From: Polaribacter marinaquae
Lineage (GTDB): Bacteria; Bacteroidota; Bacteroidia; Flavobacteriales; Flavobacteriaceae
Reading direction: 5' to 3'
Assembly (NCBI RefSeq): GCF_038019025.1
Contig: NZ_CP150496.1
Location: forward strand, 2,496,001-2,560,000
Length of the DNA: 64,000 nt
Below are positions 39,263-63,439 of this stretch, one piece after another; position 1 is the first letter of the stretch, and every line of letters starts with the position of its first letter. Position numbers and translations under genes: made by a program. The notes beneath the pieces were generated by a model. That model was not told the origin of the DNA, ran no database searches, and saw nothing but the letters and a program-made list of their open reading frames with translations.

Positions 39263-39278
39263 TATGATGTTTACAAAG

Positions 39279-40259
39279 TTATTTTTCCGTTTGTTTATTG
39301 ATCCAATTCATTAATTCATATTTATCTATTTTATTCCAAGTAGTCTGTGTATTTCGATTTTCAGATTGATTATATTCAGGCTGCAAAATAACTAATTCTG
39401 TATTTTTATTTCCTGCAAGTTCTAATTCGGCTAAAAATCCAACAATGTCAGTAGCATTATTTTCATATAAAGTTCTGTAATATTTTTTAAGTCTGTACTT
39501 TATTTTTGGCTCGATATAGGCTCTTACAGCATAATTTTTATAAAAATTAATATTTTCATTATTTTGATTAGAGTAACTATAAGTCGAGAAATTATGATAA
39601 TTATCTTGAGCAGTTTTGGGTGTACCTTTCAGGTAGGTTTCCAACATAAAATTCATAAAAGTCGGCTCCCAAAGATTGATTCGATTTATTTTAATGTCTC
39701 GTTTATGTTGTTGCCATTTTCTTATCCAATCTAATGTAAAATCACAAATAACCACACCTTTAATGTTAATCTTAAAACCGGAATCTTCTTTATTGATAAA
39801 TTCAGTATATTTCATTGCTCTATGACCAACTAAACCTGCACCCAAAAAGAAAATATTTTCATTAGGGAGATTGAATTTTTTAAAAATTTTTTGAATTAAA
39901 TTATGAGTAGATTTAATCGAAGATTTAGAAAAATAAAAATCTAGAGGTATTTCGGTAGAAATTGATAATACCCCAAAATTACTTATAGATGCTTGATTAT
40001 ATATCTGCTTAGAACTAAAATTCTTTTTGTTGTATTTTGAATCTTCTAAGAAAATAAGTACACCTTTTATCTTTTTATTTTCGGGAAGCATTAGAGTATA
40101 TCCTTTTTGAATAAAGGGTAAAAAGTCATTTTCTCCTATTCCAATTTTTAGGCTGTCATTTTTTACAGGTTCGTAATCTTTAATTATTTTCTGCGAAAAA
40201 GATTTCGTGCTTAAAGTAGTAAGAAAGAGTAATAGTAATAACTTAAAAGGTGTTTTCAT
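39279..40259 (-). CDS. Secreted alpha/beta-hydrolase-like protein lacking the Ser nucleophile
   Basis: 326 aa. Signal peptide (LLLLLFLTTLSTKSFSQ). The body has an alpha/beta hydrolase-like order: GVLIFLEDSKYNKK, GVLSISTEIPLDFYFSKSSI, ENIFFLGAGLVGHRAMKY at the place of the nucleophile elbow (GxSxG), and IKGVVICDFTLDW. The elbow reads GAGLVG, so the Ser is replaced by Gly and classical esterase activity is doubtful. It is the leftmost member of the minus-strand cassette-like series and is followed upstream by repeat R1. The assignment of fold is inference. Confidence 0.7.
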   Translation of the reverse strand: MKTPFKLLLLLFLTTLSTKSFSQKIIKDYEPVKNDSLKIGIGENDFLPFIQKGYTLMLPENKKIKGVLIFLEDSKYNKKNFSSKQIYNQASISNFGVLSISTEIPLDFYFSKSSIKSTHNLIQKIFKKFNLPNENIFFLGAGLVGHRAMKYTEFINKEDSGFKINIKGVVICDFTLDWIRKWQQHKRDIKINRINLWEPTFMNFMLETYLKGTPKTAQDNYHNFSTYSYSNQNNENINFYKNYAVRAYIEPKIKYRLKKYYRTLYENNATDIVGFLAELELAGNKNTELVILQPEYNQSENRNTQTTWNKIDKYELMNWINKQTEK

Positions 40260-40276
40260 TATTGTTTTTTAGTTAC

Positions 40277-40403
40277 AACAAGGTCTTTATGTATTGTTGG
40301 TTATGTAAATTAAGTAACTAATCTACTAAATAAATCACGAACGGCGAAAATCCGAAGGATTTTCCAAGTTGGCTAAAACTATAAATTAATTATGCACTTT
40401 CTT
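40277..40403. repeat. Cassette repeat R1 (attC-like)
   Basis: About 127 bp: starts TTACAAC, has the central palindrome GAAAATCCGAAGGATTTTC (40346-40364), then AATTAATTATGCAC and ends near CTTGGCA. The outer parts are diverged from R3-R7. Confidence 0.7.
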
Positions 40404-40407
40404 GGCA

Positions 40408-40997
40408 TTAGTTTCTTCTTTCGTTCCTTTTTATTTTTTTCATAATCTTTTCAAAACCTTTTCTGGTTAGTTTTTCTACGCTTTTTGTAAAAGCAAAATC
40501 TTGATTGTTTTCGTCAATAGTTAAATTAGCAACAACAGTGTGAAAATAAAATTTTTCAAGTAAATTTAAATCATATATTTCAATGCCAATTTCTACATTG
40601 TTTTCAAGACGTGAGTACACTGGTCCAATTTGTAGGGCTCCTATTTCATTTTTATTGGTATTTGCCTTTATATTAATGAAATAATCAAAATCAGTTCCAT
40701 TCTTAATATATCTTAGAATAGATTTATTGAAACTGTCTTTACTTTTAAGTTGTGGGACTAAAATGTTTTTTGCTTCATTTAATGTCGAAAATCTTTCACC
40801 TAATATTTTTGAAAATTTATCTCTAGCTATTTTGTTAAAACATAATTAACTTCTTTAGGAGATTCTATATTATTTAATAACCATTTTCCTTTTCTAAAAT
40901 CTAGGCTAGAATTAACATTTCCTGAACGTCTATAACTAGGAAAATGGCAGGATAAAAAGGTTGTAAGTATTATTAATAAAAAGAAAAGTTTTTTCAT
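40408..40997 (-). pseudogene. Lipoprotein gene broken by a 1-bp deletion
   Basis: The minus strand starts with an ATG at 40997 and lipoprotein signal MKKLFFLLIILTTFLSC, reads to SPKEVNYVLTK and hits TAG. The next frame continues without a break as IARDKFSKILGERFSTLNEA through NGTDFDYFINIKANTNKN to the stop at 40408 (KRNERRN). Adding one T to the run at 40830-40833 restores a 196-aa protein. The family is unknown. It could be a true recent pseudogene or a homopolymer error. It sits between R1 and R2 like a cassette gene, and its terminal bases match partly (TTGGCATTA near R1, TAGTGCTCA at R2). Confidence 0.75.
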
Positions 40998-41007
40998 AGT
41001 TAGTGCT

Positions 41008-41130
41008 CACGTGTTTGTGAATGCTTCTTTGCATTGGTTTAGCGTAAATCTAGTAAATAAATCACGAACGGTGAAAATCTGAAGGATTTTCGTAAGTGAG
41101 CTAAAAGCAGCAATTAATTATACACGTCTT
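41008..41130. repeat. Cassette repeat R2 (attC-like)
   Basis: About 123 bp: CACGTGTTTGTGAATG, then AAATAAATCACGAACGG, central GAAAATCTGAAGGATTTTC (41073-41091), AAGCAGCAATTAATTATACACG and a degenerate end (TCTTAAG). The inner part is shared nearly base for base with R1. Confidence 0.75.
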
Positions 41131-41172
41131 AAGTTTGTCTTTTAATAAATTTGATATCTAATCAGAAAGAAT

Positions 41173-41338
41173 AAAAGAGAGAATTAAGGTTAATATATAC
41201 GGTGAAGCTTTCGACTTCGACAACATTGGTAATCCTCTCTCTTTTCTACTATAAACCACGTTCAGTTCTGTGAGACCTAGATCTCGTTTTCAAGTTGTTG
41301 TGAGTCATGGTAGGTTATTCTTTCATAAATCAGTTCTT
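41173..41338 (+). ncRNA. Candidate IS110 bridge RNA leader
   Basis: The segment upstream of the transposase holds a long stem, AAAAGAGAGAATTA (41173-41186) against TAATCCTCTCTCTTTT (41230-41245), enclosing a smaller hairpin GAAGCTTTCGACTTC. IS110 elements express a bridge RNA from the non-coding end next to the transposase, so this is the expected location. The guide loops have not been identified. Confidence 0.45.
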
Positions 41339-42316
41339 ATGAATAAATATAAGGAAATTTTTGGAGTTGACATTAGCAAAGATGTGTTTGATGTTTATGG
41401 AAGTACAAGTGGTCATAATCAATTTAAAAATGATGCCTCTGGATTTAATTTTTTTCTAAAAAATCTTCCTAAAAACTCATTAGTAATTATGGAAGCCACA
41501 GGTTATTATCATTACAGGTTAGCTCAATTTTTATACAAGCAAAGTGTTATTGTCTCTGTTGTAAATCCATTATCAATAAAGCGTTTTATTCAAATGAAAT
41601 TGGCAAAAGTTAAAACAGATAAAAGTTATGCCAAAGCAATTTGTGATTATGGAATGATAAATGAAGTTCCATTATACAATGCTCTTACAGATGTTCAAAG
41701 TGAATGTTTACAGCTCTTTAGGTGGTTAGATAGTTTAATAAAAAAACGTACAGCTACCAAGAATAAAATTCATGGAGAAGAAGTGTTAGGGGTTCCATCA
41801 AAATGGGTCTATCGCTCTTTAATTCGTGTTAAAAAACATTTAGAAAGAGAGATTAAAGGCATAGAAGAAAAGTTACTTACTTTAGTAAAGCAAGAACAAC
41901 AAGCTCAATTAACACTTTTAACCAGTATTCCAGGAATAGGATTAAAGACAGCATTATTTTTAATCGTTGTGACAGATGGTTTTGAAAAGTTTGAAACAGC
42001 GGCTCAACTTTGTAGTTATGTAGGAATCACACCAACAATAAGAGAGTCTGGAAGTAGTGTGAGGGGTAGAGCAAGAATTAGTAAGGTGGGTAATAGAAAG
42101 CTACGCAATCTTTTGTTTTTGTGTTCATTTACAGCTTGTAAGCATAATAAAGGTTGTAGAGAAATTTATGAGCGAATTGTAAACAAAGGTAAGAGTAAGA
42201 AATTAGCTTTAATTGCGGTTTCTAATAAGTTGTTAAAACAGAGTTTTGCAATTGCCAAATCTGGATTAGCATATGATGAAACTTATGTTTCTGTATTGTC
42301 TAAACAAATAAGTTAA
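41339..42316 (+). CDS. IS110-family transposase
   Basis: 325 aa from the ATG at 41339 (MNKYKEIFGVDISKDVFDVY). The N-terminal DEDD RuvC-like domain has GVDISKDVFD, VIMEATGYYHYRLAQFL and AKVKTDKSYAKAICDYG. The C-terminal Transposase_20 domain has LLTSIPGIGLKTALFL and IRESGSSVRGRARISKVGN with the catalytic Ser. All key residues are present and the frame is intact, so the element may be active. Confidence 0.95.
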   Translation: MNKYKEIFGVDISKDVFDVYGSTSGHNQFKNDASGFNFFLKNLPKNSLVIMEATGYYHYRLAQFLYKQSVIVSVVNPLSIKRFIQMKLAKVKTDKSYAKAICDYGMINEVPLYNALTDVQSECLQLFRWLDSLIKKRTATKNKIHGEEVLGVPSKWVYRSLIRVKKHLEREIKGIEEKLLTLVKQEQQAQLTLLTSIPGIGLKTALFLIVVTDGFEKFETAAQLCSYVGITPTIRESGSSVRGRARISKVGNRKLRNLLFLCSFTACKHNKGCREIYERIVNKGKSKKLALIAVSNKLLKQSFAIAKSGLAYDETYVSVLSKQIS

Positions 42317-42436
42317 AAAAAAAAATAAAGCTCAAAATACCAAGTAAAAGCATTTTGAGCCTAAAATAATATTGAATAGATTTAACGAAGAAAATAGTTG
42401 TTTTTTAGCTCAGTTCTTTGTTGGTAGTAGTATTTT

Positions 42437-42805
42437 TTAATAACCAGTTCCACTAAATTTCATTAGAATTGTGTCATTTTTGATTTCGCAAAAGACTTTT
42501 CTGTTTAACGAACCTCCGTTTGTATAATATCCACCAACAGTTTGTTCCTTTTTTCCATTTTTTCTTTCGAATATTATTCCATATGCGCCATCTTCTTTTT
42601 GATTATTTGTCATATCCAGAAATTCCTCAACTGTCTCATTCGGTTTTATTTTTTCAAATTCCAGCTTTGTGCTTCCGTCCGATAAAAAAAATACATTACG
42701 AATAGTTTTGTCAGAAGAGTTTTTGATTTTAGCTATAATTCCGTTTTTCCCATAATTACAGGAAATGAAAGTCAAAAGTAATATTAGAACGGTTAGCTTT
42801 TTCAT
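42437..42805 (-). CDS. Small lipoprotein, cassette gene
   Basis: 122 aa. Lipoprotein signal MKKLTVLILLLTFISCNYGK. The rest is a small beta-rich domain (IKNSSDKTIRNVFFLSDGST, KPNETVEEFLDMT, VGGYYTNGGSLNRKVF). No family is recognised. The ATG lies 10 bp from repeat R3, in the minus-strand order GTTGTAC, short leader, ATG, like a promoterless cassette gene. Confidence 0.72.
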   Translation of the reverse strand: MKKLTVLILLLTFISCNYGKNGIIAKIKNSSDKTIRNVFFLSDGSTKLEFEKIKPNETVEEFLDMTNNQKEDGAYGIIFERKNGKKEQTVGGYYTNGGSLNRKVFCEIKNDTILMKFSGTGY

Positions 42806-42814
42806 ATTATGTAC

Positions 42815-42940
42815 AACGTGTTTTTGTATGGTTTGTTGCGAGTTTAAGCAATAAAGTTAATGAATAAAACACTAACAAAGAAAATCCGAGAGGATTTTCG
42901 CAAGTGAGCAATTTGCAAGCAATAAATTATACAAGGTGTT
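42815..42940. repeat. Cassette repeat R3 (attC-like)
   Basis: 126 bp. Left end GTAC-AAC-GTGTTTTTGTATGG, central GAAAATCCGAGAGGATTTTC (42880-42899), right end AAGGTGTT-GGGC. The GTTGGGC end fits the attC R' consensus GTTRRRY. Confidence 0.85.
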
Positions 42941-42952
42941 GGGCAAAGTTTT

Positions 42953-43660
42953 TTATTCAATTTCAATTAATTCTGCTTTTTTCATTCCATCAAATTTTTC
43001 AAATTCAGACATTTTCATTTTTGGGCAATGATTTACAACTAAATTAAATTCTCTTATTCTTTCAATAGTAGTTAAAAATATTTTGAAATTTCTATTTTTA
43101 TTTTTAAAAGTCATTTCATAAACTGATTCATTAATTTTATGTATTTCAATAATTGTTTTTTGAAACTTCGTTCTTGACTCAATACTATTCAATTCAAGTT
43201 TTATATTTCCTTTTTTTGATTCAATCAATTTATAAATAGTATGAGCTTTAGATTCAAGTGGACCATAAATTATAAACGAATCTTTGAGTAATTCAAATCT
43301 TTGGTCAATTCCATCACATCTTTCATAAAGAATATATTCGCCCTTTAATTTTCTTAATGTTATAAAATTATTCGGAAATTCTTTCAACTGAATTGATTTG
43401 GGTTTAAAATTCTCATTCAGTTTTTTTAAAGATAATTTGGTATCATTAATATCATATTTTGATTTTTTCCAATTTTCAATTCTTTTGTAGAATATTGAGT
43501 TTCTTGTAGTGTCTATGAAAATTTGATTTTCATTTAGATTTAATGACTTTGGATTATTTTTTTCAATAATCGTGTCTTTTTCAAACCTTTCTGTTTGAGA
43601 AAATATCTTACCAGAAATTATGGATAGAATTATAATTAATATTACTGTTATTCTGTTCAT
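42953..43660 (-). CDS. Secreted protein of unknown function, cassette gene
   Basis: 235 aa from the ATG at 43660 (MNRITVILIIILSIISGKIF), with a Sec signal peptide; an upstream TTG would only add residues from the repeat. The mature part is K/E/N-rich with beta segments (GEYILYERCDGIDQRFELL, GPLESKAHTIYKLIES). No family is recognised. It is bounded by GTTGGGCAAA on the left and its exact reverse complement on the right, the clearest cassette-type boundary pair here. Confidence 0.72.
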   Translation of the reverse strand: MNRITVILIIILSIISGKIFSQTERFEKDTIIEKNNPKSLNLNENQIFIDTTRNSIFYKRIENWKKSKYDINDTKLSLKKLNENFKPKSIQLKEFPNNFITLRKLKGEYILYERCDGIDQRFELLKDSFIIYGPLESKAHTIYKLIESKKGNIKLELNSIESRTKFQKTIIEIHKINESVYEMTFKNKNRNFKIFLTTIERIREFNLVVNHCPKMKMSEFEKFDGMKKAELIEIE

Positions 43661-43673
43661 TTTAATTTTGCCC

Positions 43674-43799
43674 AACGTATTTGTGTTATGGAAAGTTGCG
43701 TTTAAGTGAACGGCTATTTTCCGAAGGAAAATAGAAGTTTACAAAAATGCGATTAACTTTTATTAAGCTAAAATTAAGCAATTTTTTTTACACGGTGTT
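43674..43799. repeat. Cassette repeat R4 (attC-like), occupied by the integrative element
   Basis: 126 bp. Left end GCCC-AAC (fits RYYYAAC), central CTATTTTCCGAAGGAAAATAG (43714-43734), right end TACACGGTGTT. It differs from R5 by three substitutions and one indel over its length. The bases after GTT belong to the integrative element. Confidence 0.88.
43790..43799. other. attL of the integrative element
   Basis: ACACGGTGTT, a 10-bp direct repeat of 58609-58618. Joining 43799 to 58619 restores an R4 end followed by GTACAAAG, which matches the right end of the next cassette. Confidence 0.75.
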
Positions 43800-43914
43800 A
43801 TATAGATACTGCACTCTATTACTCTAAATTTCTTTAAAACCCTTTATATACAAGGGTTTATGGTTTTTAGCCAAAGTAAAATAATGCAATAAAATGCGCT
43901 AAAATGCTTGTTTT

Positions 43915-43934
43915 GTTGTACCCTTTGTTGTACC
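43915..43934 (+). promoter_or_regulatory. Paired GTTGTACC repeats, likely integrase arm sites (left)
   Basis: GTTGTACC at 43915-43922 and 43927-43934, 12 bp apart and in the same orientation. A matching pair occurs near the right end. Confidence 0.5.
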
Positions 43935-43981
43935 TTAGTACTCGGTTGCACCGCATTGCATCCCTTTAAAACCAGTACTTT

Positions 43982-45199
43982 ATGTCTTCAATAAAACTAA
44001 TTTTAAGAAATAACAAGATAGATAAAGCAGGTGAAGCACCTCTTTATTTAAGAGTTATCAAAGACCGTAAAACTAAATTCATTTCGTTAAGCCTAAAATT
44101 AAAGCCAAATGAATGGGATGAAGATAAGCAAAAAGTAAAAAAGAATCACAGTAATTCTACAAGGCTAAATGCTTACATATCTCAAAAGGTAGCGGATGCA
44201 AAAGGCGAAATTGCAGACCTAGAACGCAGGAACCAATCCACAACCGCAAGAAAATTAAAAGAGGCCATTAAGGGTAAACCCTTAACGAACTTTTTTGACT
44301 ACTCTGATAATCTTTGCGAAAAGAGAAAAGATACTTTAGCTTATTCGACGTATAAGAATTACAAAACTTATTTAAAGAAATTTGAAAAGTTTGTAGGGCA
44401 TAGAGAGTTGATGTTTGAAGATATTACAGTTACAACTTTAAAGGATTTTGCATCTTATTGCAGTTCTACATTAGGCAATAATAATACAACCATAAATTTC
44501 TCTTTAAAGATTATGAAGATAATGTTTAAGGAGGCGCAAAAAGAAGATTTAATACCTTTGGATTTATTTCCATTTAACAAATTCACAGTAAAAAAAGATA
44601 AGAGTACAAAACGCTATTTATCTGCTGAACAGTTTCAGGACTTTATGGATTTAGAAGTTTCAAATAAGGACAAAGCACAGATTATAAAAGATATGTTTAT
44701 TTTTTCAGTCTTTGCAGGTGGTTTAAGGTTTGGGGATATGTTAGAGCTAAAATGGAAAAATTACGATAAGAAAAACGGAAGAATTACAAAGATAATCAGA
44801 AAAACAAACAGACAGCACAGCGTTAGAATAGGGCAAAAAGCAGTTGAGATTTTAGAGAAGTATCAACAAAAAGACCAGAAGCAAGAAGATATAATTTTCC
44901 CTTTTGCAAATATTGATAAAACCTATTTTACAGATAAAGAACATAGAAATTTAATAACCGGAAGAGCAATAGCATTAAGCAATATGTATTTAAGAAAAAT
45001 GGGCAAACGTTTAGAACTGCCTTTCAATTTAAGTTTTCATATTAGCAGACATACATTTGCTACCAGGGCATTAAATAATGGTATGCGTATAGAACACGTT
45101 TCTAAATTGATGGACCATTCAGATATTGGTATCACGCAAGTGTATGCAAAGATTATTAGTAGTGAGTTAGATAATGCAGTAGATAAATATATCAATTAG
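43982..45199 (+). CDS. Tyrosine recombinase / integrase
   Basis: 405 aa. N-terminal arm-binding domain (LILRNNKIDKAGEAPLYLRV), SAM-like core-binding domain (about 105-200) and catalytic domain. Catalytic residues: Arg in FAGGLRFGDMLEL, Lys in the following beta hairpin, HISRHTFATR (H-x-x-R), LMDHSDIGITQVYAKI (His and nucleophile Tyr). This is the Bacteroidota ICE/IME type, not an integron IntI. It starts 182 bp inside the left end and probably catalyses recombination at ACACGGTGTT. Confidence 0.96.
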   Translation: MSSIKLILRNNKIDKAGEAPLYLRVIKDRKTKFISLSLKLKPNEWDEDKQKVKKNHSNSTRLNAYISQKVADAKGEIADLERRNQSTTARKLKEAIKGKPLTNFFDYSDNLCEKRKDTLAYSTYKNYKTYLKKFEKFVGHRELMFEDITVTTLKDFASYCSSTLGNNNTTINFSLKIMKIMFKEAQKEDLIPLDLFPFNKFTVKKDKSTKRYLSAEQFQDFMDLEVSNKDKAQIIKDMFIFSVFAGGLRFGDMLELKWKNYDKKNGRITKIIRKTNRQHSVRIGQKAVEILEKYQQKDQKQEDIIFPFANIDKTYFTDKEHRNLITGRAIALSNMYLRKMGKRLELPFNLSFHISRHTFATRALNNGMRIEHVSKLMDHSDIGITQVYAKIISSELDNAVDKYIN

Positions 45200-45202
45200 T
45201 TT

Positions 45203-47185
45203 ATGAAGGAAATTGTTTTTGATAGTTTTAAAAGCACACTTCAAGAAGTGAAGATTTTAAATAATATCGTTGTAAAAGAAAAAATTAGAAATTCTCAATT
45301 AGAAGACAGTTTAAAGCAGGCGCAGAATTTATTATTTTCTAGTTACAGTAGCTTGAATATTTTTGCTGAATCAGTTAAAAGTTATATATCTGTAGGGTAT
45401 AAGATTACACCTTTTGATAAAAAAGAGAAGAAACAAATATCAAAAATTGAAGCTAAAATAATTTATAACAAATTATTAGGCATCATAAACTCGGAACTAG
45501 AAAAAGATATTATTGTACCAACAGAATCATTAATTCTTCAAAGTCAAATTTCTTCATTAGGTTTAGCTTTTATTTCGGCCTCAATAGATGAAAATCTAAA
45601 AAAGAATAATGATGAATTAAATATTGATAAATTAAAATCACAAGAACTATCAACAGCACTAAATAAATATTTTGCTGCTATAATAGGTTATATCCAAGAT
45701 ATTTTATTGTACGACATTTATTTAATATTTGAAAAGCCAGAAATCACTTACTTGCAAGAAATTGTTTTTACAACAGATTACAAGAAAGAATATATTGATA
45801 AATGGCTAGATTGTACTGTAACTTTTAATGAATTAAGAAGAAATAAAAGAACAGATCATTGGGCTGAAATTTATAAGCTAAAATTAGAGTTTGAACAAAC
45901 AGAAAAAATTGAAAATCATCAAAAAAAGCTTTTTAATGAACGTATTGATTTTGAAATAAGAAATGCAATAAATGATTTTGATGAATTAGAAGATGACGTC
46001 AAAAAGGAAGCATTAAATAAAGAGATTAAATTAATACAAGACTTTTTCAATAGTGATACATCAAAGACTGTTGTAAAAAGGCTTAAAAATATTTTAAATT
46101 TTTCTAAGCCAAAAGAGGTGGTTTTAGAGTATGATAATATTTTAAGGGATAGGTTATTGTTGGGTGATTTTAATATTTACGAAGTTGGTAAATCAAATTA
46201 TTCATCAGCTTTTGTAGCATCTTTCTTTATGCAGTATTTAGATAAATTAAAAGAATATTTAGAGTCACTTAATGATGAAGTAAATAATAATAAAATGATA
46301 AACGACCAATTTCAATACGACAACTTCAAAGATTTATTATTAGTAGAAGAATTAGAAAAGCGTGTAGCAATTGAAGCAGCAGAGTACAAAAAGAATTGCG
46401 ATGACTATTGGGAAACTTATACTTTCGACCCAACCTATTTTGATACGTTCATTTCTGGCGAGTTGTACACTATATTTTTAAACGCTATATATGAAAGAAT
46501 AAAGCCTTTAAATGACTTTGAAATTAATAAATACCTAACACTATCATTAAATCAATTCAATACACATACGCCAACAAAAAGAGCTGAAGAGTTTAAAAGA
46601 ATTTACCACAATACATATTGGTTTCCAAACTATATGGAGTACAATCCAAATCAGTACGAGAATAAGTATCCTGTTCACGTTTGGAAGCATTACGCAAATC
46701 ATTTCCACTTATTTAAAGAAGCATCAGAAAATATATTACAGGACTTTAAAAAAGGCTTAATTGGTAGTGGCAGAAAACAAGAAGTCATTGCAAAGCCAAA
46801 GACTAAACTAAAATCAAAGCATAACTCATTTACTTATAAAAAATGGAGATTTGAATCCACAAATCTAACTTCATTAAAAGACTCTTTAATTAGAAAAAAA
46901 TTAATTGCATCAGACACAGATCTAAAGGATTTTAGAAAAGCATTTAGCGGAGAAGAAATTGAAAAGCCTATTGTCTGGACTGGTAATATTAGCGAACTTT
47001 CATATTTCATTAAGCAATTGCATAATGTATTAAAACTTGTTGTAGATTTAAAGCAACAGCAATGGGCAGTAACTATAAACTGTTTTATTCAAGAAAACGG
47101 AGAGCAATATAACCGCACCAAATTAAGAACTCAAAAAGTTCCTGCTACATCAAAAAACATTGATATGGCATTAAAAACACTGTAA
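45203..47185 (+). CDS. RteC-like large protein of the integrative element
   Basis: 660 aa, mostly alpha-helical, no signal peptide. The N-terminal ~550 residues are not recognised. The C-terminal part (GEEIEKPIVWTGNISELSYF, IKQLHNVLKL) resembles the C-terminal domain of RteC, the regulator of excision of Bacteroides conjugative transposons. It is 3 bp after the integrase stop. A role in control of excision or transfer is inference. It may instead belong to a flavobacterial element family with only local similarity. Confidence 0.6.
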   Translation: MKEIVFDSFKSTLQEVKILNNIVVKEKIRNSQLEDSLKQAQNLLFSSYSSLNIFAESVKSYISVGYKITPFDKKEKKQISKIEAKIIYNKLLGIINSELEKDIIVPTESLILQSQISSLGLAFISASIDENLKKNNDELNIDKLKSQELSTALNKYFAAIIGYIQDILLYDIYLIFEKPEITYLQEIVFTTDYKKEYIDKWLDCTVTFNELRRNKRTDHWAEIYKLKLEFEQTEKIENHQKKLFNERIDFEIRNAINDFDELEDDVKKEALNKEIKLIQDFFNSDTSKTVVKRLKNILNFSKPKEVVLEYDNILRDRLLLGDFNIYEVGKSNYSSAFVASFFMQYLDKLKEYLESLNDEVNNNKMINDQFQYDNFKDLLLVEELEKRVAIEAAEYKKNCDDYWETYTFDPTYFDTFISGELYTIFLNAIYERIKPLNDFEINKYLTLSLNQFNTHTPTKRAEEFKRIYHNTYWFPNYMEYNPNQYENKYPVHVWKHYANHFHLFKEASENILQDFKKGLIGSGRKQEVIAKPKTKLKSKHNSFTYKKWRFESTNLTSLKDSLIRKKLIASDTDLKDFRKAFSGEEIEKPIVWTGNISELSYFIKQLHNVLKLVVDLKQQQWAVTINCFIQENGEQYNRTKLRTQKVPATSKNIDMALKTL

Positions 47186-47265
47186 TAACACTCTACACTT
47201 CTAGTGCAGTATTAAAAAACTTTCTTCAAAAAATACAGTTAATCTCTTTTAGTTTGTCTGTTTTT

Positions 47266-47305: not shown

Positions 47306-47372
47306 TTTTTAAAGTGTTTTGAACCTCTGTTTCTGACAATCTTTGTTTTCATAATCATAAAAATTTTATCAA

Positions 47373-47663: not shown

Positions 47664-47682
47664 TTCTAAAATGTAAAAAGTT

Positions 47683-55900: not shown

Positions 55901-56176
55901 GAAGAATTAGCCTTCTACTATGCAATTGCAGAAAATGAAAGTGCAAAAGAAGTGTTGGGTAATGAAGTTTTAAGAGAGTTAGCTGTCCATTTATCGGAAG
56001 TTGTAAAAAACAATGCAACAATAGATTGGACAATTAAAGAAAGTGTTCGTGCCAAATTGAAAGTAATGGTAAAAAGAGCACTAAGAAAATTTGGCTATCC
56101 ACCAGACCTTCAAAAATTAGCAACAGATACCGTATTAAAACAAGCTGAATTATTAGCAAATCATTGGACTAAATAG
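52952..56176 (+). CDS. hsdR: Type I restriction endonuclease subunit HsdR
   Basis: 1074 aa. The nuclease domain has the PD-(D/E)xK motif [20 protein letters not shown]. The SF2 translocase has [19 protein letters not shown] (Walker A), [13 protein letters not shown] (DEAH), [16 protein letters not shown] (motif III) and, near the end of the helicase, [24 protein letters not shown] (motif VI). The length is normal. With the HsdM-S fusion it forms a complete RM system, a plausible defence or addiction cargo for the element. Confidence 0.96.
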   Translation: [1074 protein letters not shown]

Positions 56177-56181
56177 TCCCC

Positions 56182-56235
56182 ACAACACAAAACCCAGTTT
56201 TTTCGTACCTCAAAATCCTCTGTTTTTTGTGTTGT
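56182..56235 (+). terminator. Hairpin after hsdR, possible terminator
   Basis: ACAACACAAAA (56182-56192) pairs with TTTTGTGTTGT (56225-56235), with an inner CAG/CTG pair. There is no T run after it, so the terminator call is moderate. Confidence 0.5.
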
Positions 56236-57199
56236 TCCGCGCGCCACCGCATAGTTAGTTTTATGTCATAATACTTGTACCCAACGCTATAATGGCACAT
56301 TGCTTGTTTTATTTAAACGTATCTATTTTTCTTAATTGGTACAATAAAAAAGCAAAGAGCCATTGCCTACGCTCAAACAACTATTACGCCAAAAAACCAA
56401 CCCAAAGCTATGTTACATAATAGAAGTTATAGTAGCAAAAACCTTTTCATTGGTACGCTACGCTAAGTTTTTATGTTTTGGTAGCTATAACTGCTATTAT
56501 GTAAAATATCCGCTCATCCAACGCGCACTTCCTTACATATAACAACATTTTGAACTAACAATGAACATTCCTAGGTTCTTGCATTGTTTTTATAAGTGCT
56601 TTTTTAGTTTCATTTCAACAAGACTTTTAATTTTGAAGTTGGGGTTTATATAAGATAATTTGTAAAGCACCTATAAAATCAAAAAATCCAAATAAGAGTA
56701 TTACCATTCATTTGTCAATAACATTAGTACAATAAAAGAAAAGGAAGTAAAACAAATAAAGGGCAATACACTTATTTCCGCTACTGCCAGCGCACTACGT
56801 ACTTTAATATTGTTTTTATTTCTTATCTCATTCCATTGCACAAAACCATCGTTAAGTCCAAGTATTCCTTATCTCAAGTCTTTGTTTATTCCATTTCACT
56901 AAGAAATAAAAATGTCCTAACATCATATTTAGAACTATAAAAAAATAAAAAAGATAGCAAATATAAGTGCCTTGCTACAGCCAACGCTAAAAGCCTGTAA
57001 AGGTCAAGCCCTACGGGTTTTGAATAAAACTTTTTTCACAATATTTCTTCTTTTTCATTAAACATTTTAACTCAAAAAACTTTTATCCAAAAACCTTGAC
57101 AGTCTTATCCAAGGCACTTTTAGATAGCACATCTTTTTTCTTTCTTTTCCAAAAATAATGGCGCGAAGCGTAGCGAAGCAAATTTTTAATTGGATAGCT
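56236..57199. other. Non-coding 1-kb interval inside the element
   Basis: No credible ORF on either strand. It holds a long inverted repeat (56413-56504) and GC-richer patches (56236-56260, 57160-57180) that break the AT-rich background. It could hold a transfer or replication site, but no relaxase gene is present to support an oriT. Confidence 0.5.
56413..56504. repeat. 20-bp inverted repeat with 52-bp spacer
   Basis: TTACATAATAGAAGTTATAG (56413-56432) and CTATAACTGCTATTATGTAA (56485-56504) are complementary at 19 of 20 positions; CAAAA/TTTTG extends the pairing inward. Confidence 0.75.
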
Positions 57200-57640
57200 A
57201 TGTCAACTTTTGAACTGAAAACACACCGAAGCGGAAGAGCTTACTCGAAACCTCATTTTTTTATACTAAATAAAGGTCTAAACAGCGGAAAACCGCTTTC
57301 AAATCCTTGTCCTAACTGTTTTGTAGTGAAAACTGCAACCGAAAAAGAAAAAAACACGCTGTTTCATTTATCTATGATGCTACAAATAGGCGGTTTTTAC
57401 GCTTATTATTTAAAAGGTAGTGTTATTCCGTTTATTTCAATAGATGATTGCAGAAAAACGCTTAAAAGCAGTTTAAAATCAAATAGTAATGCAGGCGATT
57501 TAATACAGAAACATATTAAAGCGGTTGAGGTTATTAGTAAAAAAGAAAAAGAGTTACAAAATGTCATTGATAAAATGGCAGTTTTAAAGGTTGCATATAT
57601 CCGAAATTGTTTCAATCTAATGCAAACGAAAGAAGTCTAA
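57200..57640 (+). CDS. DUF6943-like protein of the integrative element
   Basis: 146 aa from the ATG at 57200 (MSTFELKTHRSGRAYSKPHF); an upstream in-frame codon adds non-conserved residues. Central segments are NSGKPLSNPCPNCFVV, LQIGGFYAYYLKGSVIPFIS and DDCRKTLKSSLKSN. It is small, basic and cytoplasmic. Proteins like it recur near DUF6266 genes in flavobacterial elements and are listed, as I recall, under DUF6943. Function unknown. Confidence 0.65.
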   Translation: MSTFELKTHRSGRAYSKPHFFILNKGLNSGKPLSNPCPNCFVVKTATEKEKNTLFHLSMMLQIGGFYAYYLKGSVIPFISIDDCRKTLKSSLKSNSNAGDLIQKHIKAVEVISKKEKELQNVIDKMAVLKVAYIRNCFNLMQTKEV

Positions 57641-57777
57641 TGCAAAGGCATCACAACGCACTAAAACAGTAACAGAATGGCATAATTTTCGTTATATTAG
57701 AAGAGTAAACAAAGTTTAAAAGCAATATTAAGTCCGTACCAAATCCGAACGTGTATTAATTTTAAATATTTATAGTT

Positions 57778-58419
57778 ATGGGGAAAATATCCCAAGGAAT
57801 TTTAGGAGGGTTATCAGGAAAAGTAGGTAACGTAATTGGTGGTAGTTGGAAAGGTATTGACTACATCAGAATTAAGCCATCAAGTGTGGCGAATCCTCGA
57901 ACAGAGGGGCAAGTCAATCAGCGTAATAAATTTACTGTTACATTGGAGTATTTACAACCGAACAAAGAGTTCTTGAAAGTCGGTTACAAGTCATTTGCGA
58001 CAAAGAAAACAGAATTTAATGCTGCAATGTCTTATGTGTTGAATAATGCAGTAGGAGGTACTGCGCCAAACTTTACGGTAGATTATTCTAACGCTCTATT
58101 AAGTAGAGGTTCATTATCTGGAGCATTAAATGCAACTACAGATTTAGCAACAGCAGGACAAGTTTCTTTTGCTTGGGATGATAACTCATTAGAGGGTAAT
58201 GCAAATACAACTGATAAAGCAATGGTTTTAGTTTACAATCCAAGTAAAAAAGAATCAATGTATATTTTAGATGGGGCAATTAGAACTGCAGGTTCTCAAA
58301 CAGTAACACTACCAGGAACTTATGCAGGCGATACAGTAGAGCTGTTTATTGCGTTTGTTTCCGCTGATGGTACACAAGTATCAAACAGTTTGTATTTAGG
58401 CTCTGGTACGGCAGCTTAA
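57778..58419 (+). CDS. DUF6266 family protein
   Basis: 213 aa. The family start GKISQGILGGLSGKVGNVIG, then GGSWKGIDYIRIKPSSVANP and RTEGQVNQRNKF, is highly recognisable. The rest is beta-rich with Ig-like periodicity (LATAGQVSFAWDDNSLEGNA, AGDTVELFIAFVSADGTQVS). There is no signal peptide. It occurs widely in Bacteroidota mobile elements. Function unknown. It is the last gene of the element, before a strong terminator. Confidence 0.9.
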   Translation: MGKISQGILGGLSGKVGNVIGGSWKGIDYIRIKPSSVANPRTEGQVNQRNKFTVTLEYLQPNKEFLKVGYKSFATKKTEFNAAMSYVLNNAVGGTAPNFTVDYSNALLSRGSLSGALNATTDLATAGQVSFAWDDNSLEGNANTTDKAMVLVYNPSKKESMYILDGAIRTAGSQTVTLPGTYAGDTVELFIAFVSADGTQVSNSLYLGSGTAA

Positions 58420-58448
58420 TAACTTTAAGCGTAAATACATACAAAAAG

Positions 58449-58481
58449 AAACCGTTACAATATATTTGTAACGGTTTTTTT
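58449..58481 (+). terminator. Strong Rho-independent terminator after the DUF6266 gene
   Basis: AAACCGTTACAA (58449-58460) pairs perfectly with 58466-58477 around a 5-nt loop, followed by TTTT. Confidence 0.95.
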
Positions 58482-58528
58482 ATGCTTTTAGATCACTATT
58501 TCTACTTCTCAAATTTATAGTTTAAAAA

Positions 58529-58547
58529 GTTGTACCTATGTTGTACC
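58529..58547 (+). promoter_or_regulatory. Paired GTTGTACC repeats, likely integrase arm sites (right)
   Basis: GTTGTACC at 58529-58536 and 58540-58547, same orientation as the left pair and 11 bp apart, about 65-80 bp from the right boundary. Confidence 0.5.
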
Positions 58548-58608
58548 TCTTTTAATTTGTTTCTAAATAAGTCAATAAAATCAACACATACAGAGTTTTA
58601 TCTACACA

Positions 58609-58618: not shown

Positions 58619-58631
58619 GTACAAAGTTTTT

Positions 58632-59246
58632 TTATTTTATTCGATTGTATGTATATCCAGAAGGATGACTAATATTTCCAGTTCTACTTTCTCCACCATT
58701 ATCTATTTTTCCATAATTTAGAATTGTTAAATTGCTTTTTGTAGAATCAATATTATAATTCCAAATTTCATTATTTGAATGTAAAAAGTCAGAATAACTT
58801 GGGAAATAATTCATTAATTCACAAAATTTTATTTTCAAACTGATATTAGGATCGTTTGCTTTTAAATTTTGTTTACTTGTGTAATAAAAAATAGAATCTT
58901 TAGTTATACGTAAAAATTTTCCAAGTTTTTCATAGTGTTTTTTATCTTTCTCACTTTTTATTTTACTTAATATCTTTATTTTCCAATTTCCTTCTATATT
59001 TCTAATTAACTTTTTCCTTAAAGTAGATTTTAAAGAGTCAGATAATTTCAAAGATTTTTTTCCTGTTTTACTTTCAGGAAGCAATTCATATGCAAACCTG
59101 TAAGAAGAAAAAGCTCTATTTATTTGACGTTCATTTAATTCCATTTCAGCCTTCTTATACCAATTATTTTGTGCTTCAGCATCCTTTTTTTCTTGAGCAA
59201 TAATTAAAATCGGAATTAGGAAAATTATCAGAAGTAGCTTTTTCAT
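58632..59246 (-). CDS. Secreted protein of unknown function, cassette gene
   Basis: 204 aa from the ATG at 59246 (MKKLLLIIFLIPILIIAQEK, a Sec signal peptide). An upstream TTG would start inside the repeat and is rejected. The mature part is helical and charged (KAEMELNERQINRAFSSYRF, ESKTGKKSLKLSDSLK), then beta-rich (GNWKIKILSKIKSEKDKKHY). No family is recognised. It is bounded by GTTGTACAAA at 58617-58626 and TTTGTACAAC ending at 59259, exact reverse complements. Confidence 0.72.
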   Translation of the reverse strand: MKKLLLIIFLIPILIIAQEKKDAEAQNNWYKKAEMELNERQINRAFSSYRFAYELLPESKTGKKSLKLSDSLKSTLRKKLIRNIEGNWKIKILSKIKSEKDKKHYEKLGKFLRITKDSIFYYTSKQNLKANDPNISLKIKFCELMNYFPSYSDFLHSNNEIWNYNIDSTKSNLTILNYGKIDNGGESRTGNISHPSGYTYNRIK

Positions 59247-59256
59247 AATTTTGTAC

Positions 59257-59383
59257 AACGTGTTTGTGTTATGGAAAGTTGCGTTTAAAGTGAACGGCTA
59301 TTTTCCGAAGGAAAATAGAAGTTTACAAAAATGCGACTAACTTTGATTAAGCTAAAATTAAGCAATTTTTTTTACACGGTGTT
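59257..59383. repeat. Cassette repeat R5 (attC-like)
   Basis: 127 bp. Left end GTAC-AAC, central CTATTTTCCGAAGGAAAATAG (59298-59318), right end TACACGGTGTT-AGCT. Nearly identical to R4. Confidence 0.88.
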
Positions 59384-59411
59384 AGCTGACGTTTTTTAAT
59401 TCGGTTTAGTT

Positions 59412-59876
59412 TTATTCCGATTTTGCTGGATTTTTTCCCCAATCACACCAAAAGTTAAACTTTTTTTCAGTTAATTTTTCTTTCAAATTTTTATTCATTT
59501 CTATAATTATAAGATTTTCGTGAGTATTTGTTGCAAAAAATTCTTTTCCATTTTTCACAAAACTCATATCTTCATAATTATAACCATTCCAATCTCCGTA
59601 TTTTTTTGATTTGATAAATTCCTTTAATTCATCTGATAATTTATATCTGACAAAATAATTTCCATTAGAGTAAATTTTTTCACCCCTTTTGTTTTTTTCT
59701 ACTAAAAATTCAGAAAGAGATTCAATTTCAAGTGTAATTTCTTGATTTGTATAAAGTACATTGAATTCAACAAATTCAGCCTTTTCAAGAGCATAATCAA
59801 GTAAATATTGCCACTTTTCTTCTTCTCCATATTTCAATGAATCGTCACAATAGTATCTGTTTTCGGTGTTGCTCAT
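59412..59876 (-). CDS. Small cytoplasmic protein of unknown function, cassette gene
   Basis: 154 aa, no signal peptide. Rich in E, K, N and aromatic residues (EEKWQYLLDYALEKAEFVEF, KKYGDWNGYNYEDMSFVKNG, FNFWCDWGKNPAKSE). I recognise no family; the fold could be an SMI1-like or immunity-type small domain, but nothing fixes this. It is bounded by GTTAGCTGAC on the left and GACAGCTAAC on the right, matching at 9 of 10. Confidence 0.72.
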   Translation of the reverse strand: MSNTENRYYCDDSLKYGEEEKWQYLLDYALEKAEFVEFNVLYTNQEITLEIESLSEFLVEKNKRGEKIYSNGNYFVRYKLSDELKEFIKSKKYGDWNGYNYEDMSFVKNGKEFFATNTHENLIIIEMNKNLKEKLTEKKFNFWCDWGKNPAKSE

Positions 59877-59887
59877 AAATGACAGCT

Positions 59888-60092
59888 AACGTGATTGTAT
59901 AAGATTAGTTGCGTGAAAATATGTTTAAATTTTCGGATTAAGAAATAAGCTATTAAAGCTGTTTTATCCTTATAAAATCGGGTTGAAAACCTGAAATCTA
60001 AAAATCATAACAAAACTGCTTTAATAGTGGTTTTCCAAATACAAAACGACCAATGGGGTAGCCTTGAGCAGCAATTAATTTTATACGGTGTT
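59888..60092. repeat. Cassette repeat R6 (attC-like, longer variant)
   Basis: 205 bp. Left end AGCT-AAC-GTGATTGTATAAG, right end AGCAGCAATTAATTTTATACGGTGTT-ACCT. The outer parts match the other repeats, but the centre is a different sequence without the GAAAATCC palindrome. Confidence 0.75.
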
Positions 60093-60131
60093 ACCTGCAG
60101 GCTTTATTCCCCTAATTAGTAACAGTTGTTG

Positions 60132-60638
60132 TTATTTTTCTGTTCCTTCTTTATTTAGGCTTAAAAATTTTAAACCTAGAGCCAAAAGCACAATTGAAGC
60201 AGGGAGTATTATTAATTCCCATTTAAGGTTGTCAATATTCACAAATACTACTTCAAGAAATTTTACAAATAGAATAATCACAATGACTTCGGCAAGTACA
60301 TTTTTTAAATGTCCGATGTTTGGGGTTCTAATCCATTTTAAAACACCATTTCCATCATCAAATTTTTTGTTAGATATGAATAAAGTATATACTCCATGGG
60401 CAAAAATGAAAAGCACCAAAGCAATCAAGAAAGTGTCTAAAGATTTAATAAGATAAGTTGTTGCTATATCTGCAGTATGTAAATGGGCTTTGTCTTTTGG
60501 AATGTAATCGAATAGCACAACTCTAAAAGCGTTGATGGTTTTTAAGGCTCCAACGACAAAAAGTAGAAGCGAACCAAGTAGAGAGCCTATAATTGCTATC
60601 CAGCTGATATATCGGAATAGATAGAATGTTTTTTTCAT
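60132..60638 (-). CDS. UPF0114 (YqhA-like) membrane protein
   Basis: 168 aa with three to four membrane helices (YISWIAIIGSLLGSLLLFVV, SLDTFLIALVLFIFAHGVYT, VLAEVIVIILFVKFLEVVFV). LKWIRTPNIGHLKNVLAEV with the preceding Lys/Asp-rich loop is typical of UPF0114. Function unknown. It is the promoter-distal gene of a minus-strand set with aldehyde dehydrogenase, but a terminator lies between them, so it may have its own promoter. Confidence 0.88.
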   Translation of the reverse strand: MKKTFYLFRYISWIAIIGSLLGSLLLFVVGALKTINAFRVVLFDYIPKDKAHLHTADIATTYLIKSLDTFLIALVLFIFAHGVYTLFISNKKFDDGNGVLKWIRTPNIGHLKNVLAEVIVIILFVKFLEVVFVNIDNLKWELIILPASIVLLALGLKFLSLNKEGTEK

Positions 60639-60683
60639 AATATAAATGAGTTTTAGAGCTATTACAGCTGCTTTACTAAAAAT

Positions 60684-60710
60684 TAAAACCCCGGAATTTC
60701 CGGGGTTTTA
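60684..60710 (-). terminator. Bidirectional terminator after the aldehyde dehydrogenase gene
   Basis: TAAAACCCCGG (60684-60694) pairs perfectly with CCGGGGTTTTA (60700-60710) around a 5-nt loop, with A/T runs on both sides. Confidence 0.92.
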
Positions 60711-60733
60711 TTAAAACTAAATAGAGGTTTCAA

Positions 60734-62236
60734 TTAAAAGAATCCCATTGGTTTCTTGTCGTAAGATATCAACATGTTTTTTACAACACGGTAATGATCT
60801 AATGCCATTTTATGGTTTTCACGACCAAATCCTGATTCCTTAACACCACCAAATGGAGCGTGAGCAGGATAGGTATGGTATTGGTTTACCCAAACTCTAC
60901 CTGCTTGAATAGATCTAGGAACTTGGAATAATTCGTGTGCATCACGAGACCAAACACCTGCACCTAATCCGTAAGGCGTATCGTTAGCAATAGCAATAGC
61001 TTCCTCGGTAGAACTGAATGTAGTTAAGGCTACAACTGGGCCAAAAATTTCTTCTTGGAATACACGCATATTGTTATCACCCTTTAAAACGGTAGGCTGG
61101 ATGTAGTATCCTTCAGAAAGTGCGCCTTCGTAATTACCAGCGTCACCACCAGCTAATACCGTTGCACCTTCTTCTTTACCAATATTGATATATCCTAAAA
61201 TCTTCTCGTATTGTGCTTTAGATACTTGAGAACCAATCATCGTTTCAGGATCTAATGGGTCCCCAGTTTTAACATCTTTTAAACGTGCTTGCATTCTTTC
61301 GATAAAAAGGTCTGCAATATCTTCATGGACAAGAATACGTGATGGTGATGTACAGATTTCTCCTTGGTTAAGTGCGAACATTAACGCGCCTTCAATAGCC
61401 TTGTCGAAAAACTCATCATCTTGTTCTGCAACAGATGGGAAGAAAATGTTTGGAGATTTTCCACCTAATTCCATAGTTACTGGAATAATGTTTTCTGCAG
61501 CATTGTGCAATACTTTACGTCCTGTTTCGGTAGAGCCAGTAAATGAAAGTTTTGCAATACGTTTAGATGTTGCTAAAGCTTGTCCAGCTTCTGCGCCGAA
61601 ACCAGTTACGATGTTTAATACACCTGCAGGTAAAATGTCGCCTATAAGTTCCATTAACGCCATAACACTGGTAGGAGTTTGTTCTGCCGGCTTAACAACC
61701 GCTGTACAACCTGCAGCTAAAGCTGGAGCAATTTTCCATGCTAGCATTAACATTGGGAAGTTCCAAGGAATAATTTCTCCAACAACACCTATAGGTTCGT
61801 GCAATACAATACTTACCGTGTCTTTGTCGTGTTCTGAAACACTTCCTTCGTCTGCACGGATAACACCTGCGAAATAACGAAAGTGATCAATACAATAAGG
61901 AATATCAGCTGCACGAGACTCACGAATTGGTTTCCCATTATCGATTGTTTCCAAAGTTGCCAAGTACTCGAAGTTGTCTTCCATTACTTGTGCAATTTTT
62001 AAAAGCATATTGCTACGCTCGGTTGCTGAAGATGTGCTCCAAGACGGGAATGCTTCGTGTGCTGCATCTAAAGCAAGATCTACATCTTCTTGGGTTGAAC
62101 GTGCTGCTTGGGTAAATACTTTTCCATCTACAGGAGATACGTTGTCAAAATACTGACCCTTTACAGGTGCCACGAATTTTCCTCCAATAAAGTTCCCGTA
62201 TCTTTCTTTGAATACAGGTTTTTTTACATTTGCCAT
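60734..62236 (-). CDS. NAD-dependent aldehyde dehydrogenase
   Basis: 500 aa, full-length ALDH. NAD fold: [47 protein letters not shown]; general base [14 protein letters not shown] (Glu); nucleophile [11 protein letters not shown] (Cys); [10 protein letters not shown] and the C-terminal [14 protein letters not shown]. It is closest in pattern to acetaldehyde dehydrogenases of the ExaC/AldB/AcoD group. Base composition is clearly richer in G and C than its neighbours, which suggests transfer or high expression. It is probably controlled by the AraC protein encoded just upstream. Confidence 0.96.
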
Positions 62237-62302
62237 AATTATTTGTTTAAGTTATTTTTCTGAATTTGTACTTGCTTTAAACAAGCGTTTGTAATTACAG
62301 TG

Positions 62303-62361
62303 CAAATGTATGGCGAGTGTTCACTTTTTAACTTATTGAAACAGCTCAATAACTTATGAAA
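62303..62361 (-). promoter_or_regulatory. Aldehyde dehydrogenase promoter with AraC-type operator
   Basis: On the minus strand TACATTTG (62310-62303) is a TAnnTTTG -7 element. Upstream are two direct repeats, AACTTATTGAAA (62330-62341) and AACTTATGAAAA (from 62351), 21 bp apart, the spacing usual for AraC operators; the inner one overlaps the -33 position. A palindrome TTATTGA/TCAATAA (62333-62352) is also present. Confidence 0.55.
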
Positions 62362-62455
62362 AAAGGTCAAAGTGTATTTTAGAAGAGTAACAGCTGAGTA
62401 GTACTATATTTACTTTGTTGATTTTAAGATGGTTAGTGTGATTGGTTGATTTTTA

Positions 62456-63289
62456 TTAAATATCCTTTGGGCTTTTTCCGAACTTATTTTTGAAGGCTGT
62501 GCTGAAGTTGGAGAGGTTATTATAACCTATATCTAAATAGATATCAGAGGGTTTTAAAGATCCTTCTTGCAATAACTCCATTGCTTTTTGAAGGCGTTTA
62601 TCTTGAAGCCATTTTCCGGGTGCTTCATTGTATTCAGATGTAAAATGGCGCTTGAAGGTGGATAAGCTCATATTACATAAAAAGGCTATTTCTCCCAGCT
62701 TTAAATTGGAATACACATTACTTTCCACTGTCTTTTTAAAAGGAGAAACCTCTTTAGAAATTAAAGACTGTAAATAAATTTCAAAATTTTCTCCATATTT
62801 ATTTAATAGATAAAGCATAATTTCCTCAAACTTTATTGAAAGTAAATTTTCTGAAAATGATGAAGGCGCATTGCTTAAAGTGGATAATGAATTTAAGTAA
62901 GAAGAGATATAGGTATCATTTTCTATCACAAAATATGCTATCTCATCTTTATTCAGCAGTGTGTTTTTAGTGTGCTTTTTTAAAAACTCCAGTAGTTTCT
63001 CTTCCGAAAAAAATAACAGTTTACAATAATAGATCGCTTCTTTATCCAGTAATTCTGTCCATAACCAGTTCCCTTTTTTTAGCAATAAGGATTGGTCTTT
63101 ATTTACTGCTACGGAAGTGTCTGCAAAATGCACCTGTTTTTTACCAACTTGTAAAAAGCTAAACATATTCATGCTTAAATTCACCTTACTTTTAACAACG
63201 TCATTGGTCATTTTAAAATCATAAACGAACAAATCAGGACTTTCTTTTTTGTCCTGGATGTAGATTTCTGGTATGTTTTCTATTGGCAT
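62456..63289 (-). CDS. AraC family transcriptional regulator
   Basis: 277 aa. The N-terminal sensor part (about 1-160) is a cupin-like beta region. The C-terminal double HTH is LGEIAFLCNMSLSTFKRHFT, then DKRLQKAMELLQEGSLKPSD, and IYLDIGYNNLSNFSTAFKNK followed by FGKSPKDI. It lies upstream of, and in the same direction as, the aldehyde dehydrogenase gene (219 bp between), which carries a matching operator. The most likely role is an aldehyde- or alcohol-responsive activator (inference). Confidence 0.92.
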   Translation of the reverse strand: MPIENIPEIYIQDKKESPDLFVYDFKMTNDVVKSKVNLSMNMFSFLQVGKKQVHFADTSVAVNKDQSLLLKKGNWLWTELLDKEAIYYCKLLFFSEEKLLEFLKKHTKNTLLNKDEIAYFVIENDTYISSYLNSLSTLSNAPSSFSENLLSIKFEEIMLYLLNKYGENFEIYLQSLISKEVSPFKKTVESNVYSNLKLGEIAFLCNMSLSTFKRHFTSEYNEAPGKWLQDKRLQKAMELLQEGSLKPSDIYLDIGYNNLSNFSTAFKNKFGKSPKDI

Positions 63290-63315
63290 AAGGATTTTTT
63301 TTTCAGCTTGCAGGT

Positions 63316-63439
63316 AACGGTTTTGTGTATGCTTTGTTGCGTTGATTTAGCGTAAAGTTAGCAAATATATACTTAATAGAAAATCCGCAAGGATTTTCGT
63401 AAAAAGGCTAAAAGCTAGCAATAAAATATACACGTTGTT
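63316..63439. repeat. Cassette repeat R7 (attC-like)
   Basis: 124 bp. Left end AGGT-AAC-GGTTTTGTGTATGC, central GAAAATCCGCAAGGATTTTC (63379-63398), right end GCAATAAAATATACACGTTGTT-GGGC. The final GTTGGGC fits the attC R' consensus. Confidence 0.85.

Follow-up and report, generated by a model that had tools for sequence, protein, structure and literature searches.

A candidate integron-type cassette array headed by a non-IntI tyrosine recombinase in Polaribacter marinaquae

Classical chromosomal integrons, run by the integrase IntI, combine an integrase gene, an adjacent attI site and one-way gene cassettes that each carry a 3′ palindromic site (attC), and their cassette content turns over between close strains. 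The accessible sections of one study describe the I2 helix as the innovation that lets integrases use single-stranded sites, with Xer proteins being without I2 (PMC7790495), and a survey of IntI and classical attC reports, in the part available, a single complete integron from Bacteroidetes proper, that of Salinibacter ruber (PMC9024848). The window analyzed here, a stretch of 64,000 nucleotides (nt) of Polaribacter marinaquae (contig NZ_CP150496.1, chromosome positions 2496001-2560000), holds the far end, or distal third, of a 21-site array that reaches position 2585993 of the chromosome. This array shares the above layout and cassette turnover of classical integrons, together with the pairing of cassette ends across the gene, which is also seen in an IntI control array (genome G376). 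Its layout is closest to the Treponema type, in which, as far as the available text of the source goes, the integrase likewise points towards attI and the cassettes (PMC3607928). In contrast to IntI integrons, its recombinase lacks an insert of ~41 residues and falls outside the IntI clade, the recombinase family typically has a longer N-terminal part, and the sites carry a fixed mismatch beside the outer arm. On the strength of its sequence, the array is very probably an integron-type gene-capture platform run by a non-IntI integrase.

The layout, unit structure, attI-like junction and cassette turnover of the array can be read directly from the DNA. Each unit consists of GTT, a gene, AAC and then an imperfect palindrome of ~125 nt, and a profile search of the window located seven members of a single palindrome family, all on the minus strand, as the initial annotation had described from the letters alone. 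The gene heading the array (G000:C1:2587243-2588400, minus strand) lies 27 kb past the window end, which leaves the annotation's remark that no integrase is in view true of the window and untrue of the array as a whole. It is an open reading frame (ORF) of 385 amino acids (aa) with a TTG start, and the R, H, R, H and Y residues that we take to be catalytic are invariant in 17 aligned relatives. Among the PF00589 matches listed in 12 genomes is a tyrosine recombinase of ~390 aa beside array heads. In the fetched regions, 12 array heads of the genus have this recombinase ahead of the first site and on the same strand as the cassettes; in one of them (G016), 6.5 kb separate it from the first profile match. 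Just after its stop codon lies an attI-like site, ATATAAC(C/G)A followed by GTT, or a near variant. At 9 of the 12 heads the GTT comes 27-42 nt after the stop, and the bases that follow match the first tail at 10/10 positions, one of these matches spanning 6.4 kb, probably with undetected sites in between; at the remaining three, 8 or 9 of 10 bases match, with one GTT at 27 nt. The repeat is present in 86/88 genomes of the genus with the recombinase and in 43/58 without it (p 2e-5).

Comparison with a genome listed as the same species (G919) delimits the variable region. The recombinase and the flank on its side are 95.3% identical over 4739 bp, and identity stops at the GTT of the attI-like site (AATATATTTGATTGCATATAACCA|GTT in both genomes), just after the recombinase gene, to resume within a few bases of the last array site. 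The far-side flank aligns in stretches of 2855 bp (96.2%) and 4187 bp (98.1%) plus a short piece of 238 bp (86%); ~3 kb of the P. marinaquae flank has no match in G919. Both this breakpoint and the nine heads thus place an attI-like site next to the recombinase, with GTT as the insertion point. Between the breakpoints lie 21 sites in P. marinaquae and 47 in G919, and none of the 16 and 45 delimited cassettes (150-3000 bp) is common to the two; the intra-array matches of at least 180 bp are the sites themselves (74-83%) and parts of the integrative element at window 43800-58608 (78-87%). The initial annotation had stated that an identical gene order, with no gain or loss of cassettes, would tell against its reading, and this conspecific pair presents the opposite. 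Across species, thresholds of 70% for identity and coverage gave 30 cassette pairs. In no pair do the two cassettes have a neighbour in common, and 27 of the 30 involve two cassette families amplified in one genome, G013.

The pairing of cassette ends was assessed in 215 distinct head/tail pairs from 14 array segments of the genus, with neighbours less than 3 kb apart. The six bases after GTT are the reverse complement of the six before the next AAC in 178/215 pairs, as against 5/213 when both sides belong to the same repeat and 5/202 for the next-but-one repeat, and shuffled identity at the six positions is 0.32-0.54. The 178 matching pairs comprise 85 different 6-mers, and 12/15 distinct neighbour pairs in the P. 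marinaquae array match over 6 nt. The four end pairs quoted in the annotation are all in the sequence, its statement that the variable bases match across the gene and not across the repeat extends to the genus, and a general lack of matching across the enclosed genes, which it had named as contrary evidence, did not emerge in the array regions examined. It was also right that most ends depart from the RYYYAAC/GTTRRRY core, since GTTRRRY fits only 27/178 heads. The length of the match, which it took as a peculiarity relative to classical attC, is no such thing: G376, from another class, has a true IntI array whose first six links show matches of 10-14 nt with GTT included, and heads there often depart from the same core.

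A cassette appears as a gene plus one 3′ palindromic site in a single orientation, the unit that characterizes integrons. Searched iteratively against five fetched regions, a profile yielded 273 sites with one orientation per region, 122 of them in one 120-kb stretch, and with more regions added, 375/375 sites in 16 segments follow the direction of their segment. The largest ORF lies on the gene strand in 197 of 266 distinct cassettes and on the other strand in 18, while 51 have none of 50 aa; the 197 gene-strand ORFs cover a median of 0.93 of the cassette behind a leader of 28 nt. Copied cassettes bring along their 3′ palindrome: among 20 clusters of similar cassettes, represented by one pair each, the downstream site has a median identity of 0.98 and the upstream site 0.69, and the downstream value is the higher in 19/20, although the effect is weaker in the three cross-species clusters. 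Shuffling of the array by homologous recombination between repeats, with no site-specific recombination, would agree with the 97% identity of two window repeats over 100 nt and with the cassettes amplified in G013. It is nonetheless very unlikely, as the 3′ repeat is better retained in copied cassettes than the 5′ repeat, the pairing across the gene would go unexplained, and the attI-like site shares by eye nothing with the repeats before GTT, yet conspecific identity stops there. Similarly, the annotation's alternative of a repeat family that duplicates with its gene captures the co-travelling 3′ repeat and is insufficient beyond that, because it does not explain the attI-like breakpoint, the recombinase or the absence of shared conspecific cassettes.

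Cassette functions are diverse. The 47 proteins scanned, which were part of the cassette ORFs of P. marinaquae and G919 plus one flank ORF, matched 39 Pfam families, the 25 on display each being represented by a single protein, and 13 PADLOC families, likewise with one member each. Transport, peptidase, glycoside hydrolase, leucine-rich repeat and HEPN functions are represented, among others. Separately, G013:C1:2093000-2292000 contains about 30 matches to tyrosine recombinases, which have equal scores and recur in groups at regular intervals; this resembles an unrelated amplification.

The palindromes are asymmetric between strands. Head base 8 is A in 178/178 matching pairs and its tail partner C in 158/178, giving an A-C mismatch on the gene (top) strand and a G-T wobble on the bottom strand beside the outer arm. 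In 223 distinct sites of the genus, stem mismatches comprise 564 that are wobble pairs on the bottom strand, 8 on the top strand and 297 others, and the bottom strand folds better in 220/223; these are counts rather than probabilities, because related sites are not independent. Such asymmetry suggests a folded bottom strand as the substrate, as for attC. In 87/88 sites from heads outside the genus, each stem half also pairs better with its own opposite half than with one taken from a different genome. Intergenic RNA elements, such as terminators or processing sites, would also place a stable hairpin 3′ of each gene, but the wobble pairs are kept on the strand opposite the genes, and this, with the cassette turnover and a Rfam scan that matched no family at the repeats, makes an RNA explanation extremely improbable.

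By its defining insert and its clade, the recombinase falls outside the IntI integrons. The spacing from KGxKDR to TPHxLRH is 62-64 residues in 44/44 relatives, 102-104 in 31/31 IntI proteins and 65-73 in 10/10 Xer-like proteins, so that the ~41-residue insert specific to IntI (the I2 helix additional domain) is missing. Five of five recombinases match the TIGR02249 model at 194-212 bits, in two pieces, against a cut-off of 265, and a median of 101 residues (range 9-150) precedes the core domain in the new family, compared with 11 in IntI. In both trees, IntI forms one clade with 100/100 support and no new row inside. The first tree places 40/44 new rows in one group (94/87) and 4 beside IntI at 83/45. 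A wider tree, which took 21/44 new rows and 11/31 IntI rows with outgroups from Bacteroidota only, contains a clade of 25 rows at 96/82 (21 new, two short array-heading ones and two from other classes, for which arrays were not shown), adjoined at 91/32 by array-less proteins of G319 and G390. The new clade, the G319/G390 proteins, IntI and a further insert-less group stand together against Xer at 97/97; the branching order of IntI and the new family is an open fork in this second tree. One IntI row with a 792-aa frame (L216) and one Xer locus with no long ORF (L258) were left out of the trees. An expectation that only N-extended recombinases head arrays proved wrong, as short ones in G303 and G039 have 7, 21 and 12 downstream profile matches. 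Among named families, the recombinases score 204.5-220.8 bits with XerA/NF040815 ("site-specific tyrosine recombinase/integron integrase"; cut-off 220, 1/5 over). This model is broad, with matches over the cut-off in 108/198 genomes of the phylum, and it covers Xer proteins, so that a match to it, despite the name, is not specific to cassette integrases. The best solved structures matched are 4a8e ("probable tyrosine recombinase XerC-like"), 5hxy ("tyrosine recombinase XerA") and 2a3v (IntI4).

A decayed or integrase-less classical integron, that is, a cluster of attC sites lacking an integron integrase (CALIN), would consist of ordinary attC sites on which an IntI acts from another locus or acted before its loss. 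The sites do resemble attC in layout, and IntI is common elsewhere in the phylum, exceeding its cut-off in 84/296 sampled genomes; the matches at 1e-60 fall in 85 genomes, one listed in Bacteroidia and the rest in other classes, the Bacteroidia share of the 296 being uncounted. Moreover, the Polaribacter phage P12002L carries an integrase-less attC cluster, and the accessible text reports that one of two predicted sites tested recombined with attI1 through IntI1, with no mention there of a host integrase or host array (PMC9892861). With the Polaribacter site profile, four stretches of the P12002L record score at E 3e-5 or better, one being split into two pieces, which places sites of this palindrome family in the phage. 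A class-wide site profile found nothing in the record below E 0.05, and a search of phage records with one site gave no match. Against a CALIN stand the P. marinaquae genome, which has no IntI match at 1e-60, the different recombinase at the array heads with an attI-like junction directly after it in 9/12, and an array content wholly different between conspecifics, and we regard this explanation as unlikely. Decay in particular, which the annotation had entertained, is not supported, the frame of the head recombinase being open. One viral contig matched a pattern. L293 (NC_028924, about 30008-30060) and L281 have shorter stretches, of ~50-75 nt from AAC to GTT, whose ends are of the same type and which may be short sites.

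The system recurs beyond this species. A single-repeat search of 39 genomes matched 21/24 of the same genus (P. marinaquae included) and 1/15 others, and recombinase relatives occur at 1e-60 in 59/296 genomes of the order and at 1e-50 in 140/295 genomes of the class Bacteroidia. To the heads of the genus were added 40 chosen from these lists and one on a plasmid, two of them (G228) belonging to the same genus. A chain test, in which cassettes are defined by paired ends alone, gave a longest chain of 9 links, compared with 4 in shuffles. Among seven IntI regions used as a positive control, two exceeded the shuffles (G376 with 13 links, G549 with 5 links at 6 nt), so the test either misses many true arrays or the other five regions hold none. 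The reverse complement was useless as a control, because GTT..AAC pairing is its own reverse complement, and shuffles and a held-out model were used instead. For the latter, the site profile was rebuilt for each genome in turn from the sites of the others. Of the 33 heads that have at least 2 kb of downstream sequence, 23 gave two or more sites, with 137 matches on the recombinase strand and 0 on the other. Since the training sites come from other heads, this model tests recurrence rather than discovery from nothing. A profile search found no sites in two regions around the Xer genes of P. marinaquae. A plasmid of Chryseobacterium sp. SNU WT5 carries a recombinase copy with four sites downstream, which suggests that the system can travel, although its end-pairing chain does not exceed shuffles. 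Many draft contigs stop no more than a few kb past the recombinase, as would be the case if assembly fails in repeat arrays.

Several observations weigh against an integron-type platform run by this recombinase. Within the genus, 43 of the 58 genomes that lack a recombinase match at 1e-60 bear the repeat all the same, and site decay is uncorrelated with distance from the recombinase, with no gradient in either conspecific genome. In the three cross-species cassette clusters the downstream identities are 0.65, 0.71 and 0.78 and the upstream ones 0.49, 0.51 and 0.81, so that the downstream site is the better conserved in only 2/3, and 13/20 of all clusters involve G013. Beyond the genus, chains exceed all shuffles in just 14/20 heads (5 shuffles) and 9/21 (20 shuffles; two heads of this set were too short), and 10/33 heads showed fewer than two sites in the held-out search. 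Among 18 further regions, covering short or distant homologues and the surroundings of the P. marinaquae Xer genes, 5 had two or more sites; of 47 matches there, 46 follow the strand of the recombinase and the remaining one, in G319, is on the opposite strand, and three related recombinases of G319 have no array. The strand bias is also weaker outside the genus: in 88 sites (four of 92 chain-derived sites did not resemble members and were dropped beforehand), wobble pairs number 121 on the bottom strand and 44 on the top, with 74 other mismatches, and the bottom strand folds better in 65/88.

The annotation's first suggestion, a distinct Bacteroidota cassette system, gains support from the head recombinase, the attI-like junction, the single orientation, the turnover and the recurrence in relatives. 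In the proposed mechanism, the ~385-aa tyrosine recombinase would recognize both the attI-like site just after its own stop codon and the hairpin attC-like sites, presumably as folded bottom strands, with which each cassette ends on its 3′ side. By catalyzing the joining at GTT, this enzyme would insert a circular cassette at attI or excise one; once a cassette is circular, its own bases next to GTT and AAC would close the outer stem of the hairpin. Cassettes may be expressed by read-through from the recombinase gene.

Table 1. Features of the distal array and its surroundings, in window coordinates
Feature	Position	Strand	Profile match	Remarks
attC-like site RG	63316-63441	minus	83 bits	AAC side closes a cassette extending past the window; GTT side opens the aldehyde dehydrogenase cassette
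Three-gene cassette	60094-63315	minus		Ends GTTACCTGCA / TGCAGGTAAC; AraC-type regulator 62456-63289, aldehyde dehydrogenase 60734-62236, UPF0114 protein 60132-60638
attC-like site RF	59886-60093	minus	36 bits	Long central insert
Cassette	59386-59885	minus		ORF 59412-59876; ends GTTAGCTG / CAGCTAAC
attC-like site RE	59256-59385	minus	59 bits	
Cassette	58619-59255	minus		ORF 58632-59246 (or 59258); ends GTTGTACAAA / TTTGTACAAC
Integrative element	43800-58608	plus		Separate from the array; insertion point at the end of RD; ACACGGTGTT at 43790 and 58609 (both ends)
Tyrosine recombinase of the element	43982-45199			
Further genes of the element	50732-56176			Resemble type I restriction-modification subunits (from reading the translation only)
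attC-like site RD	43672-43799	minus	57 bits	Outer end adjoins the integrative element
Cassette	42943-43671	minus		ORF 42953-43660; ends GTTGGGCAAA / TTTGCCCAAC
attC-like site RC	42814-42942	minus	70 bits	
Cassette	41128-42813	minus		ORF 42437-42805; split by IS110-family element
IS110-family transposase	41270-42316	plus		Within the preceding cassette
attC-like site RB	41009-41127	minus	61 bits	Decayed ends
Degenerate cassette	40406-41008	minus		Longest listed ORF 70 aa
attC-like site RA	40280-40405	minus	43 bits	Final array site

The flank conserved with G919 starts beside site RA, at the alignment boundary. ORF 39279-40259, which the annotation had included in its range, is accordingly not a cassette, because it belongs to the flank common to the two conspecific genomes (identity resumes at window ~40279). 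Solitary copies of the repeat are also present elsewhere in the P. marinaquae genome. The IS110-family element sits within a cassette, beside a site, and IS110 relatives that target attC are known. The ends of the integrative element repeat the last 10 bases of a site, and tyrosine recombinases of similar PF00589 score and length occur in or beside other arrays (G016:C1:2259702, G001:C1:2270194, G021:C1:364150 and the G919 array), possibly belonging to elements that target these sites. Tandem direct repeats of ~96 bp (four overlapping 193-nt copies) occupy 63509-63990, in the cassette that runs beyond the window.

The literature searched, with most subscription journals and bioRxiv outside its scope and novelty hence unproven, contained in its accessible text no description of a non-IntI integron or of Polaribacter host arrays. 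We are moderately inclined to see in these arrays a second integron type that is widespread in Bacteroidia and whose recombinase acts on folded single-stranded sites despite having no I2 helix; single-strand cassette recombination may have arisen without I2, or there may have been an integron ancestor predating I2, which IntI later gained. If the recombinase relatives, found in 140/295 Bacteroidia genomes and accompanied by sites at 23/33 heads, act as proposed, a large cassette pool would have been overlooked, and a cassette system without the I2 helix would make the origin of integrons directly testable.

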